DNA of 32,210 nucleotides, taken from positions 1-32,210 of the forward strand of contig CAIRCM010000217.1 of the NCBI GenBank assembly GCA_903877125.1, written 5' to 3'. The translations under genes and the position numbers were made by a program. This document shows, piece after piece, positions 3,921 to 11,206 of this stretch (position 1 is its first letter; each line of letters opens with the position of its first letter). The notes beneath the pieces were generated by a model. It ran no database searches. It was not told the DNA's origin and saw nothing but the letters and a program-made list of their open reading frames with translations. The stretch comes from an uncultured Acetobacteraceae bacterium. Lineage in GTDB: Bacteria; Pseudomonadota; Alphaproteobacteria; Acetobacterales; Acetobacteraceae.

Positions 3921-4194
3921 AGCACGATCGGGTAAAATTGCCCCAATCGTGCTCTATAATACAAACTCGTATAAACTTTGACGTACCGACCGACCGAATC
4001 ACGTCATGCCGGCGAATGCCGGCATCCACGCCTTGCGAGGCTGGGACTTCCGAACGGCGTGGATACCAGCATCCGCCGGCATGACGGGTGGGCAGCCGCC
4101 ACGAGTCAATCATTGCGCGGGCTGGTATAGGCCTTTGTTTGATCGCGTGATTCACGCCGCCGTGTGGTCCCACCTATGGCGATCACGCTTTAAG
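3918..4194 (+). repeat. Composite A+B hairpin repeat, copy 1, interrupted by a MITE-like element
   Basis: Hairpin A occupies 3919-3955: AGAGCACGAT pairs with ATCGTGCTCT around a GGG/CCC inner stem. Unit B occupies about 4132-4194 and begins TTTGTTTGATCGCGTGAT and ends GGCGATCACGCTTTAAG. In the other two full copies (7801-7903 and 17955-18060) A and B are separated by only a few bases; here about 170 bp of another repeat lies between them. The copy sits between two convergent genes (stops at 3920 and 4232) and probably folds in the 3' ends of both transcripts. Confidence 0.75.
3957..4129 (+). mobile_element. MITE-like palindromic element 1
   Basis: The core is an inverted repeat of 31 bp with three mismatches: 4002-4032 (starting CGTCATGCCGGCGAATGCC) pairs with 4056-4086. 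The outer ends, near 3959-3983 and 4103-4128, are a degenerate terminal inverted repeat related to ATACCA...TTGACTC. The same architecture and outer sequence occur at 10838-11008 and, truncated, at 21400-21505. There is no ORF, so movement would need a transposase in trans. It splits the composite A+B repeat, with TATA on both sides as a possible target duplication. Confidence 0.7.
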
Positions 4195-4231: not shown

Positions 4232-5410
4232 TCAAAATACCTGGATCAAACCTTCCTGGTACAAGCGCCGCACCAGCACCAATTTCCCGGCCTCATCCAG
4301 ATCGCCGGGGAGATCCGCGACCGTGAACGACGGCGTGGTCAGAGCGAAACGCACATCCGGTTCGGTGAACGACGGCAGGCTCAGGTCCGGGCCTTGCCAG
4401 ACGACGCGGATTTCCGCCTCGTCGACTGCCAGGCGGAAGATTAGATCCGGCCAAGCCCCCAGACGCGTGGCCGGACCAATGTCGGGCGGCGTCGCCAGGG
4501 TCTGCAAACGGCGGTCGGAAACCGCCGGCCTGTCAGCTATGAACCCATCGGCCAGCCGGTCCAGCAACTTTCCCGTGTCCGTGCCGTCAGCCAGCCGGGC
4601 GGTCAAAGCACGGAATCGGTCGGCGGCGGCCGCGCGGTCCCAGGCCTCCCCGGCGTAACCGACCGGCAGCAGGCGACGGAATTCGACATCGTTCAGCGCC
4701 ATGTCCGCCACCGCTTCGATCAGAAGATCGGTCCAGGTCAGGCCCTTCAGCCCCAGCGTGATGTGCAGCGATACCGCATCACCGGCCTCGGCATCATGCA
4801 TCAGACCGCGCGGGCAATACAGCAGATCGCCAGGGTTGAGCACGAACTGGCGGCTGACCGGACCGGGTTCGGGATGCAGTTGCGCGAAACTCTGGCCAGG
4901 CATCGGCAACGGGAGCGGTGAATCGAATATCGTCCAGGACTTGCTGCCTTCGACCTGCAGGACGAACACGTCGTGGTTGTCGTAATGCGGCCGCAGCCCG
5001 TGCGAGCCGGGGGGCGTCAGATAGATGTTGGTATCGCACCCCACGCTCAAGTGCTTTCCCACCGCACGGCAGAGCAACTTCAAGGCGGGGATGCGATCCT
5101 GGATGCCGAACAGCACGATCGTCGCGCCGTTGGCGAACTGCTCGTACAGCCGGCGCAGGTCGATGCGCTGCCCCGCCCCGCAATAGTCCGAGGACTTCAA
5201 ATCCGGATTGGCGGCGTTGACCAGATAAACATCGGGAAAAACGTGATCGGCGCTGGCGAGGAAGCGGTCCACGTCTTCCAGGCTCAGCAGCCCCTTGTAA
5301 TGGTCCGGCTGGTTCCGGTTGACCACGGCCTCCGTCTGTTCATAGTGATGAGTGAGGAAATCCCGAGCGGACAGGGGAGCGATCAGGGCTTCGAAGCTGG
5401 ACGCGGTCAT
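4232..5410 (-). CDS. JmjC/cupin-4 oxygenase B, second of a tandem pair
   Basis: The 392-residue protein is a Fe(II)/2-oxoglutarate-dependent oxygenase of the ribosomal-oxygenase (YcfD/NO66-like) type; known members hydroxylate Arg or His side chains of proteins. The iron triad is visible as H142-Y-D144 in LRPHYDNHDVF and H216 in SLHITLGL, with GDLLYCPRGLMHDA in between. The C-terminal ~60 residues (around FTVADLPG) look like the small winged-helix-type domain seen in this family. It is 392 aa, close to the usual length. It starts at ATG 5410, overlapping the stop of its upstream paralogue by four bases. The two proteins share identical spacing of catalytic residues. The substrate is unknown; the short gene at 6664-6897 is the suggested one. 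Confidence 0.85.
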   Translation of the reverse strand: MTASSFEALIAPLSARDFLTHHYEQTEAVVNRNQPDHYKGLLSLEDVDRFLASADHVFPDVYLVNAANPDLKSSDYCGAGQRIDLRRLYEQFANGATIVLFGIQDRIPALKLLCRAVGKHLSVGCDTNIYLTPPGSHGLRPHYDNHDVFVLQVEGSKSWTIFDSPLPLPMPGQSFAQLHPEPGPVSRQFVLNPGDLLYCPRGLMHDAEAGDAVSLHITLGLKGLTWTDLLIEAVADMALNDVEFRRLLPVGYAGEAWDRAAAADRFRALTARLADGTDTGKLLDRLADGFIADRPAVSDRRLQTLATPPDIGPATRLGAWPDLIFRLAVDEAEIRVVWQGPDLSLPSFTEPDVRFALTTPSFTVADLPGDLDEAGKLVLVRRLYQEGLIQVF

Positions 5411-6597
5411 ATGGCGGCCACCCGGGTGATCAAGCCCTCCCGCAGGCAGCGATTCGCCAGGACCAGGCGCGCGTCATCGTCGATCGGACCGGGGATGTCG
5501 GCGACTTTGAACGGGGTTTCGGTCAGCATGAACGCGATGGCTTCCCGCGTGAAAACCGGCAATTCGATCGTGGTGCCTGGCACTTGCAGTGTCAGCGTGT
5601 CTGCGTCGGTCCGTATCCGCCAGATCAGATCCGGGCGCACCGTCAAGCGGCTGGTCAGGCCAAGTTCCACCGGGGCCAAACGTTCGGCCAGATGTCCCGC
5701 CATCGGCGGTTGGCGGGAGGCGATGAAATTTTCCGCCATACCATCCAACGCCTTGTCGAGTTCCGCACCCGACTCGGCAATCCGGCGCAGCAGGCCGGCC
5801 AGGGTCGCGCGCAGTTCCGTCCGGTCAAAGCCTTCGTTGGCGAAGCCTGGGGTCAAGGTGTGGTGCAGGTCCGGGTCCGCCAGGCATGCGGCGGCCACGG
5901 CTTCAATGATCAACTCGGTGCGGGTTTTTCCGAGCAGGCCGAAGGTGATGTGCAGCGAGACCTGATCGGTCGAGCGGGCGTCGTGCATCAGTCCGCGCGG
6001 GCAATACAACAGGTCGCCGGTCTGAAGTGTGAACGCGTCGATCTGCGTGCCGGGAATATCGCGGTCCTTGTCGAAGCTCTGGCCCGGCAACGGCAGCATG
6101 ATCTTGTTGTCATACAACCGCCAGTCCTTGGTCCCGGCGGCCTGCAGAACGAAAACGTCGTGTGTATCGTAATGAGTGCGGAAACCCTGCGCGTTCGGCG
6201 GGGAGAGATAGATATTGGTTTGAAACGGCATGGAAAACCGCTTCTCCGCGCTGCGGCACAGCGCGGCCAGTTCGGGCAGATGGCGTTCCAGATTGTCGAT
6301 CACGATCGTCGCGCCCTGGGCAAATCGGCGGAACAGCCGTTCGGGATCGATCTTGCCGTCAGGGTCGGCGAATTCCGCTTTTTCGACGTCGGTTTCGTGC
6401 TGCACCATCAGAACGTCGGGATAGCGCGCCACGCCCGTGTTCAGCCACGCTTCGAGACGATCAAGCGTCAGCAGGCCCGCATAAAATCCAGGATCGGATC
6501 GCGCGACACGAAGCGGCTCGGCTTCATAATACCGACCGAGAAATTCCGACACGGTGACCGGATCGATCAGCGCGTCGAACCGGTAGGGGAACGTCAT
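5407..6597 (-). CDS. JmjC/cupin-4 oxygenase A, first of a tandem pair
   Basis: The 396-residue paralogue of the next gene is also a predicted Fe(II)/2-oxoglutarate protein hydroxylase. The ligands are H142, D144 (FRTHYDTHDVF) and H216 (SLHITFGL), at exactly the same residue numbers as in protein B. TNIYLSPP, LPGQSF and GDLLYCPRGLMHDA are also shared, so the pair arose by duplication, while the N-terminal ~120 and C-terminal ~150 residues have diverged, which suggests different target residues or partners. No signal peptide is seen, so it acts in the cytoplasm. The ribosome site is weak, and a strong hairpin lies 24 bases upstream of the start. It is separated by 66 bases from the Tat-peptide gene and probably shares its transcript. 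Confidence 0.85.
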   Translation of the reverse strand: MTFPYRFDALIDPVTVSEFLGRYYEAEPLRVARSDPGFYAGLLTLDRLEAWLNTGVARYPDVLMVQHETDVEKAEFADPDGKIDPERLFRRFAQGATIVIDNLERHLPELAALCRSAEKRFSMPFQTNIYLSPPNAQGFRTHYDTHDVFVLQAAGTKDWRLYDNKIMLPLPGQSFDKDRDIPGTQIDAFTLQTGDLLYCPRGLMHDARSTDQVSLHITFGLLGKTRTELIIEAVAAACLADPDLHHTLTPGFANEGFDRTELRATLAGLLRRIAESGAELDKALDGMAENFIASRQPPMAGHLAERLAPVELGLTSRLTVRPDLIWRIRTDADTLTLQVPGTTIELPVFTREAIAFMLTETPFKVADIPGPIDDDARLVLANRCLREGLITRVAAI

Positions 6598-6620
6598 TGA
6601 TTCGTCCGATCTACACGAGC

Positions 6621-6652
6621 GGCCGGACGGCAGGACATGCTGCCATCCGGCC
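6621..6652 (-). terminator. Strong intergenic hairpin between peptide gene and oxygenase genes
   Basis: GGCCGGACGGCAG (6621-6633) pairs with CTGCCATCCGGCC (6640-6652) around a 6-base loop. In minus-strand RNA the single non-Watson-Crick position becomes a U-G wobble, so all 13 pairs form. No U-run follows, so it is not a standard intrinsic terminator; it could partly terminate, block 3' decay or lower expression of the downstream genes relative to the first one. Confidence 0.6.
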
Positions 6653-6663
6653 TACCGTTCGGA

Positions 6664-6897
6664 TCAGTCGTTGTCGGTGCTGGGACGACGATCGTGGCTG
6701 TCGTTGTCGTAGGTGTTCGCCTTGTCGCTGGAAGCATGGGCCGCGTTGGTGGACGCGATCATGGCGCCAACGGCAACGGCGGCGGCACCCACGGCCCGGC
6801 CAGCGGTCGCCAGCATCGAACGGCGATTGAGGGCAACTTTCGACACGATATCGGAGTCGGTCAGGCTAAACAGCTTCTTGCTGGTCTTTTCGGTCAC
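6664..6897 (-). CDS. Tat-signal small peptide, candidate substrate of the JmjC pair
   Basis: A 77-residue product. It starts with GTG at 6897, with TGGAGA about 6 bases upstream. Residues 1-24 form a polar N-region (LFSLTDSDIVSKVALN); R25-R26 in NRRSMLA resemble a twin-arginine motif; residues 29-50 are a hydrophobic Ala/Val/Gly helix; AHA at 53-55 is a likely signal peptidase site. The predicted mature part is only 22 residues (56-77), with six Asp, three Asn, one His, two Arg, one Lys and one Tyr. These are the residue types that JmjC and related 2-oxoglutarate hydroxylases modify. It leads the operon containing two such enzymes. I know no named family for it. An alternative reading is an ordinary small exported acidic protein. 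Confidence 0.65.
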   Translation of the reverse strand: MTEKTSKKLFSLTDSDIVSKVALNRRSMLATAGRAVGAAAVAVGAMIASTNAAHASSDKANTYDNDSHDRRPSTDND

Positions 6898-10837: not shown

Positions 10838-11008
10838 AATACCACCCGCCCCAATCATTGACGCATCGGCCTTCCACCCGCGTCATGCCGGCGAATGCCG
10901 GTATCCACGATTTTCGCTGCGCGGAGTTTGAAAAGTCGTGGATACCGGCATTCGCCGGCATGACGATATGGGTCGGGCCACGAGTCAAGGTTTCGGGCGG
11001 TTGGTATA
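10838..11008 (+). mobile_element. MITE-like palindromic element 2, best preserved
   Basis: A perfect 30-bp inverted repeat, 10881-10910 against 10936-10965, encloses 25 bases. The outer ends, ATACCACCCGCCCCAATCAT... (from 10839) and its complement ending at 11007, form terminal inverted repeats matching at about 20 of 24 positions. No coding capacity; frames read through it give the MPANAGIH-type peptide that is a known artefact of such repeats. It shares its sequence with elements at 3957-4129 and 21400-21505. Confidence 0.75.
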
Positions 11009-11206
11009 ACATCAAACCGGAACTCGTGTTGGCTACGGCCGGCAGAACGCTGGCTCGCTGCACCAGGGAGTCCGCGCCCCCCCCCTATCGGCTGTTCACC
11101 CCTTCCAGATCAATGATTTTCCGATATGGTCCGGATCCCATGCACCCGATAAACTGCCTCGGGTGTTGGCGAGCCGAACAAGGAAACTGAACCGGAGGCA
11201 GCAACA
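11009..11206. other. Non-coding stretch downstream of ccmI
   Basis: No gene is supported here. It contains a run of nine C residues (11077-11085) and a short imperfect hairpin CACCCGATAA...CGGGTG near 11143-11165. Together with MITE-like element 2 it fills the gap between the convergent-facing genes at 10809 and 11239. I see no riboswitch or small RNA that I can name. Confidence 0.4.

Follow-up and report, generated by a model that had tools for sequence, protein, structure and literature searches.

A Tat-type peptide gene beside two JmjC oxygenase genes: a candidate RiPP-like peptide-maturation system

RESULTS

A peptide gene precedes two JmjC genes

The window analyzed here is a 32,210-nucleotide stretch of DNA from an uncultured Acetobacteraceae bacterium (GenBank assembly GCA_903877125.1, contig CAIRCM010000217.1), in which a short gene for a putatively exported peptide lies beside two genes for JmjC oxygenases. 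On the minus strand, the 77-codon peptide gene is followed by a 66-base gap and then by the two JmjC open reading frames (ORFs), which share 4 bases (Table 1). The peptide carries a stretch of the twin-arginine translocation (Tat) type, NRRSMLATAGRAVGAAAVAVGAMIASTNAAHA, and then a 22-residue tail with Asp-x-Asp (DxD) sites. By sequence it has the elements of a Tat substrate, namely, an RR-x-F-L-type motif with Met replacing Phe, a hydrophobic stretch, and an Ala-x-Ala (AxA) site. An earlier reading of this DNA, made from the letters without database searches (the sequence-only reading), had described the 77-residue gene with its twin-arginine-like signal and tail, and the coordinates and sequence confirm that description. 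The NCBIfam model TAT_signal_seq scored above its cutoff for the peptide of one relative and was not reported for the window peptide, for which Pfam, PADLOC, and PHROGs gave no family and NCBIfam gave nothing above its cutoff. PADLOC antiphage models gave no family for any of the three proteins (E value of 0.01).

The hairpin that had also been noticed between the peptide gene and the JmjC genes was confirmed by folding (−36.8 kcal/mol, z = −4.77; none of 200 dinucleotide shuffles was as good). Folding with z below −2 was found in 10 of 25 comparable peptide-enzyme gaps, the window included, when judged against mononucleotide shuffles. Such a hairpin may set the peptide-to-enzyme ratio.

Both JmjC ORFs matched the Pfam family JmjC_2 (PF08007; E values of 8.8e-25 and 3.1e-25), and their products are 42% identical over 386 columns. 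The sequence-only reading had called them overlapping paralogs with H142, D144, and H216 as iron ligands. The paralogy stands, and alignment confirmed H142 and D144 at ligand positions in both proteins; the third assignment had to be revised. Alignment with MINA53 places the third ligand on the His of GLMHD, residue 205, at what we take to be the metal-binding His of MINA53, and by this comparison H205, not H216, is most likely the ligand. The iron-binding residues and K157 are invariant among 40 aligned relatives, as is H216.

A recent tandem duplication of the pair was considered and is disfavored by the enzyme tree, in which JmjC-2 (P3) groups with the single enzyme of genome G028 (support of 98/88) and JmjC-1 (P2) with the enzymes of loci L005, L007, and L021 (94/84, slightly under the level starred in the tree). 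Loci L105 and L115 have very long branches, probably reflecting a wrongly picked ORF, and L092 is also long.

Table 1 Features of the peptide-JmjC locus, with positions in the window
Feature	Positions	Strand	Basis
Precursor-like peptide gene, 77 residues, GTG start, Tat-type signal, DxD tail	6664..6897	-	Sequence; peptides of similar layout adjoin the same enzyme class
Codons of leader motif LTDSDI (residues 12-17), form L-x-[D/P/E/A]-x-[D/E/Q]-[I/V/M]	6847..6864	-	Recurs across loci
Twin-arginine motif RRSML	6811..6825	-	Sequence
Predicted mature tail SSDKANTYDNDSHDRRPSTDND (after AHA), with YDND and TDND	6667..6732	-	Sequence; loose AxA-type pattern
Intergenic hairpin between peptide gene and first JmjC gene, no T run after it	6598..6663	-	Folding
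JmjC-1 (P0002, 396 aa), cupin-4 2-oxoglutarate oxygenase, H142/D144/H205, K157	5407..6597	-	PF08007, alignments, model
JmjC-1 C-terminal domain	5410..5691	-	Model, Foldseek
JmjC-2 (P0003, 392 aa), 4-base overlap with JmjC-1, catalytic residues as in JmjC-1	4232..5410	-	PF08007, alignment, tree
JmjC-2 C-terminal domain, aligned to its JmjC-1 counterpart	4235..4507	-	36% identity to the JmjC-1 domain

DxD peptides adjoin this enzyme class in six phyla

GTDB genomes were scanned for relatives of JmjC-1, and of 335 loci the 80 best were taken. Many have, by the enzyme, a short ORF with repeated DxD and a Tat-type signal, an N-terminal motif like L-x-D-x-D-I, or both. The repeats read SDVDPTDP in Nioella, TDSDTGAYADPVGGGRG in other Alphaproteobacteria, DPDK in Acidobacteriota, and DADGTDG in Chloroflexota. 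Bacteroidota have lipoprotein-like peptides, and Streptacidiphilus, Streptomyces, and Actinokineospora have short DNDPSDPV-type peptides without a signal. The sequence-only reading had proposed looking for co-occurrence of such peptides with tandem JmjC genes; peptide and enzyme class do co-occur, but the tandem pair is rare, a single enzyme being present in 81 of 83 loci (some of them short).

Under our linkage rule, a locus was positive if a short ORF within 800 nucleotides had the leader motif or a Tat motif and at least two DxD. The rule picked out 59 of 92 loci. Of 131 control positions shifted by 4 kb within those loci it picked out 5, and of 19 loci with more distant cupin-4 enzymes it picked out none. 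By record titles the positive loci belong to the Pseudomonadota, Acidobacteriota, Bacteroidota, Chloroflexota, Actinomycetota, and Rokuibacteriota. When the 33 misses were read, 15 proved to have a related peptide that fails the rule, sits at the end of a contig, or overlaps an enzyme ORF drawn too long (L014, L016, L019, L031, L032, L035, L042, L045 [weak], L054, L061, L064, L065, L069, L082, and L084). Seven have NHLP/Nif11-type precursors within 6 kb (L043, L063, L068, L071, L073, L077, and L080; the NCBIfam check, limited to L071, gave Nif11), one (L038) lies in a radical-SAM/ATP-binding cassette (ABC) setting, and two (L039 and L099) are cut by contig ends.

Counted with no composition filter, 39 of the 146 ORFs directly upstream of the enzyme have the leader motif among their first 60 residues, versus 42 of 4,214 background ORFs from the same loci; the frequency of the motif upstream of the enzyme exceeds chance. 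At least six Asp in the final 25 residues were found in 31 of the 146 upstream ORFs versus 3 of the 4,214. A shared-gene search of the loci found no third gene that recurs across phyla around the enzyme; it returned an ABC transporter cluster in 10 loci (its representative reads as peptidase type), NHLP-type precursors in 5 loci, and small clusters of common families or closely related genomes.

Two variant layouts were seen in passing. In L046, L050, L052, L058, L059, L066, L070, L074, L081, and L082 (Granulosicoccaceae and one Chromatiales bacterium), a Tat peptide lies downstream of the enzyme; these ten peptides lack the L-x-D-x-D-I motif and keep an SDSD/NDSD site before an AD-x-x-GCG motif. 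In L079 (5044-7167), from a Streptomyces relative, the JmjC ORF has 707 codons, perhaps a domain fusion or merely an over-long start.

Enzyme and peptide co-occur across genomes

An enzyme profile searched against 385 Alphaproteobacteria genomes gave 52 matches, spread over 47 genomes, whose scores are separated by a gap into two groups. The strong group comprised 14 places in 12 genomes (E values of 3.8e-96 or better) and the weak group 38 places (2.3e-61 or worse), 29 of which stop before profile position 330 and leave the C-terminal domain uncovered. A peptide was present at 11 of the 12 strong-group loci fetched; the 12 include the window, G049, which had been seen before, and L094, where the L005 peptide recurs. 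At L099, no peptide was found in the 1.5 kb upstream, and the contig ends 28 nucleotides past the enzyme. Reciprocally, a profile of seven Tat/DxD peptides, from which the window's own peptide is too divergent to be matched, hit 10 of the 385 genomes, all among the 12 with strong enzymes, and none of the 373 others. A separate peptide search of 59 genomes, including the window's own, matched that genome, G028, G049, and G009; the G009 match is a 467-residue Tat protein with no JmjC gene in the 10-kb stretch read.

Linkage and reciprocal co-occurrence support the earlier proposal that the short gene encodes the enzyme's substrate, with hydroxylation as the presumed reaction. JmjC homologs regularly lacking the peptide, which the sequence-only reading had named as the outcome that would contradict it, are the opposite of what the close class shows; it is beside distant cupin-4 proteins that the peptide is lacking.

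On new loci, the rule was positive for strong-class enzymes at 8 of 11 loci in the Acidobacteriota (the other 3 unscored) and at 1 of 1 in Streptomyces. Among weaker cupin-4 relatives the counts were 0 of 3 and 2 of 23 (23 scored of 28 given), and both positives looked chance-like by eye. Loci went unscored where the JmjC ORF motif failed (L165, L170, and L174 in the Acidobacteriota; L146, L147, L148, L150, and L151 in Streptomyces); read by eye, L165, L170, and L174 have no DxD peptide near the enzyme. In Streptomyces clavuligerus the enzyme occurs in sixteen plasmid records, and in one of them the hypothetical protein WP_009999493.1, with LEPDEI and DNDPSDP, is encoded just upstream of the cupin WP_009999494.1. 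Since this species carries a member, the reaction is testable in a cultured organism.

These loci also yielded side observations. In one acidobacterial lineage (L162-L169), the peptide gene is divergent (head to head) from the enzyme gene, and its product resembles a TDSD-repeat lipoprotein of the Tat type; none was seen in L165. L174 (76-306) has a GG-type RiPP-like precursor (ISDEDLEGVSGGAEIDEGDCDSWWCCSNTNA; RiPP, ribosomally synthesized and posttranslationally modified peptide) about 1.2 kb from the enzyme relative. The Streptomyces loci L133-L145 form a cupin-4 group of intermediate E values (about 1e-66 to 1e-73) with no adjoining DxD peptide apart from the two chance-like matches. Distant enzyme relatives on Mycetohabitans and Rhizobium etli plasmids (L126 and L127) adjoin radical SAM and small hypothetical genes, like other RiPP clusters.

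In G265, G037, G272, and G182, whose assemblies are fragmented, further DxD peptide genes lie on contigs that do not carry the strong-class enzyme. Eight such unlinked loci were read, and no second enzyme was found within 1.5 kb; the genes around them, such as one for a LysR-type regulator, were unrelated, and one region read as ftsZ-lpxC. Some genomes combine several peptide genes with a single enzyme of this class, which may therefore act in trans on several peptides. In L202 (515-1096 and 1378-2535), an unlinked DxD-repeat peptide gene stands beside a gene that reads as having curlin-like repeats.

The C-terminal domain has a predicted RRE-like fold

An AlphaFold2 model of JmjC-1 has a mean predicted local distance difference test (pLDDT) score of 94.8, and its top Foldseek matches are NO66 and MINA53, followed by ycfD-type proteins. 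The best PDB matches of its C-terminal domain are the equivalent domain of NO66 and MINA53. After the cupin-4 proteins, at ranks 26 to 50, 13 of 25 chains are ThcOx, the heterocyclase 4v1u, McbBCD, the PbtF RiPP recognition element (RRE), TbiB1, and PqqD; 7 others are ycfD-type enzymes and 5 are ribosome entries. The matched part of the larger RiPP-enzyme chains is presumably their RRE. Sequence searches found no RRE family and no PqqD-type match, and no Pfam family matched more than 2 of 36 members. The model suggests that the C-terminal domain has an RRE-like fold.

Tails and export signals

The tails of the 59 rule-positive peptides are also rich in Gly, Ser, and Thr, and Arg or Lys is frequent. 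Five tails (L007, L029, L062, L076, and L078) have no Arg, Lys, His, or Asn, so these residues cannot be universal targets; all five hold Asp. Because the beta carbon is where JmjC hydroxylases modify their various target residues, Asp is the likeliest target. As judged from the tails, Asp is most likely the modified residue and a better candidate than His or Arg.

By simple patterns, 37 of the 59 peptides have a Tat signal, 2 a Tat signal plus a lipobox, 4 a lipobox, and 1 merely a hydrophobic stretch, and 15 have no signal. Of the 37 Tat peptides, 36 match a loose AxA pattern. The Tat export envisaged by the sequence-only reading is predicted by these patterns for 39 of 59 peptides (Tat or Tat plus lipobox), though not as the sole route. 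That one enzyme class is served by several export routes suggests that the product acts outside the cytoplasm.

Remainder of the window

The flanking genes encode an asparaginase, an amidase, a flavin reductase, and a DUF347 membrane protein and have no obvious link to the peptide or JmjC genes. A palindromic repeat at 4006-4090, read as ATGCCGGCGAATGCCGGCATCC, recurs within 10858-11063 (PANAGIH...IPAFAGMT in spurious ORFs) and is probably a dispersed repeat of the repetitive extragenic palindrome type.

DISCUSSION

The gene linkage, shared motif, modeled fold, catalytic residues, and genome-level co-occurrence are shown here, and we infer binding, hydroxylation, target residue, timing, export, and function. 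We consider it probable that the locus encodes a RiPP-like peptide-maturation system in which a JmjC enzyme with an RRE-like domain hydroxylates the tail of an exported peptide. The short gene would encode the substrate, whose N-terminal region would carry both the enzyme-recognition motif LTDSDI and the Tat signal. The cupin-4 JmjC enzymes would hold LTDSDI through their C-terminal RRE-like winged-helix domain and hydroxylate tail residues in the cytoplasm, most likely by Asp beta-hydroxylation within D-x-D. The finished peptide would leave by Tat, and signal peptidase would cleave after AHA and thereby take the place of a leader peptidase, consistent with the absence of any linked protease gene. 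Lipoprotein-type or signal-less peptides would be served by this enzyme class in other lineages, with an ABC transporter near some of them. Once outside the cytoplasm, the tail, acidic and hydroxylated, might bind a metal ion, which is a guess.

Several observations weigh against this proposal. The linkage rule was drafted after most of the 92 loci had been read and itself requires DxD, which partly accounts for Asp being present in all 59 tails; the five tails without Arg, Lys, His, or Asn likewise share Gly, Thr, and Pro. Eight of the 92 loci (L011, L024, L041, L044, L051, L055, L060, and L083) have no recognizable precursor. In the peptide-profile search, at most eight candidates were scored per genome, and 6 of the 10 positive genomes had supplied query sequences, the non-query four being G173, G272, G312, and G359. 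Most acidobacterial positives come from a single lineage and share one type of peptide. Full length alone is no predictor of a peptide, since several Streptomyces cupin-4 proteins without one match almost the whole enzyme profile. The Foldseek E values to RREs are weak (0.03 to 0.8), and the C-terminal domain is also the ordinary winged helix of NO66 and MINA53. A search for active-site residues specific to the peptide-linked class found none, the core being common to other cupin-4 proteins (26 control rows were retained from 39 loci, the others having been removed by a motif filter); the catalytic core gives no hint of the target residue.

The alternative that survives best keeps the peptide as substrate and changes the chemistry, with a different residue modified (Ser, Thr, Gly, Pro, Asn, or Arg) or a 2-oxoglutarate-driven cross-link or desaturation. 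The abundance of Gly, Ser, and Thr, often with Arg or Lys, in the tails would suit it, and a title in the reference list of PMC12710340 names macrocyclization in RiPPs catalyzed by an alpha-ketoglutarate-dependent dioxygenase. The five tails without Arg, Lys, His, or Asn and the conserved H-x-D...H residues speak against it, and we regard other chemistry as unlikely, though the strongest of the competitors. A ribosomal-oxygenase role for the JmjC proteins (hydroxylating L16 Arg or ribosomal His), with the peptide as a bystander, is very unlikely. Their nearest solved structures are indeed NO66 and MINA53 and then ycfD, and the profile finds no cupin-4 protein in the window's own genome beyond the JmjC pair. 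A housekeeping ribosomal enzyme, by our own criterion, should be steadily present within a lineage, whereas this one is sporadic, occurring in its own genome and 4 of 58 relatives, of which G026 is a weak match (E value of 4.6e-23). Peptide linkage in six phyla, absent by more distant cupin-4 proteins, and the Nif11/NHLP-type leaders or radical SAM genes beside some relatives likewise speak against a ribosomal role. A chaperone or regulator role, in which the JmjC proteins would bind or sense the peptide but leave it unmodified, is the least likely, the iron-binding residues and K157 being invariant in 40 aligned relatives.

More tentatively, and with clear doubt, the Asp-hydroxylation proposal could be extended to a cross-phylum, two-gene RiPP class in which one RRE-JmjC enzyme hydroxylates Asp in many D-x-D polypeptides, linked and unlinked. 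A shared N-terminal region would guide the enzyme and then Tat or lipoprotein export, signal peptidase would be the leader peptidase, and the products would be beta-hydroxyaspartate metal binders outside the cytoplasm. If the RiPP-like proposal itself is right, a widespread and very compact class of ribosomal peptide modification would be added, the Tat pathway would be linked to RiPP maturation, and the winged-helix domain of human NO66 and MINA53 would appear related to a peptide-recognition module.

Comparison with known systems

The PF08007 domain and the H-x-D...H iron residues place both enzymes among the JmjC/cupin-4 2-oxoglutarate oxygenases. NO66, MINA53, and ycfD share their domain order, catalytic residues, and fold but have ribosomal substrates according to their PDB titles, and none of the 19 distant bacterial cupin-4 control loci has a DxD peptide. 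Bacillus subtilis YxbC (PDB 1vrb and 7zcc), titled a putative asparaginyl hydroxylase, matches in sequence and fold over about residues 8 to 278 (E value of 5.5e-18), but the match ends before the C-terminal domain; no paper on YxbC was found in the open full-text literature.

JmjC-domain 2-oxoglutarate oxygenases are part of a RiPP pathway in the biphenomycin clusters, which contain the JmjC hydroxylases BipG/BpmG. As far as the available parts of the two reports show, these differ from the enzymes described here in being ornithine hydroxylases of multienzyme clusters with an MNIO, a B12-rSAM enzyme, and a peptidase, and "twin-arginine" is absent from both main texts (PMC12707348, PMC12257519). 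RRE-like folds joined to PF08007 have been noted on fish and algal proteins, with bacterial homologs said to sit in RiPP-like contexts; in the passages available, this is a remark on those proteins, without a precursor class, leader motif, Tat export, or co-occurrence (PMC12710340). Cupin-4 with an NHLP domain occurs in gene cluster families of sponge metagenomes, where, from the portion available, the RiPP leaders adjoining cupin-4 are of the NHLP/proteusin type, resembling our Nif11/NHLP subset (e.g., L071) and not the Tat/DxD class (PMC9426513). Excerpts of two other reports describe a Nif11 domain/cupin cluster in Synechococcus (PMC10783134) and an MNIO that hydroxylates Asp in nitrilobacillins (PMC13060819).

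JmjC enzymes in RiPP pathways and cupin-4 proteins by NHLP leaders are thus already published. Searches of a library of open full-text papers, to which most subscription papers do not belong, found no description of Tat-exported DxD peptides with a JmjC enzyme, and as far as could be searched this class is undescribed. In gene layout and shared motifs, which are all that this comparison draws on, the system has the RiPP arrangement of a gene-encoded leader and core adjoining a modifying enzyme; with its predicted chemistry, it would be a variant of the RiPP principle, not a wholly new kind.

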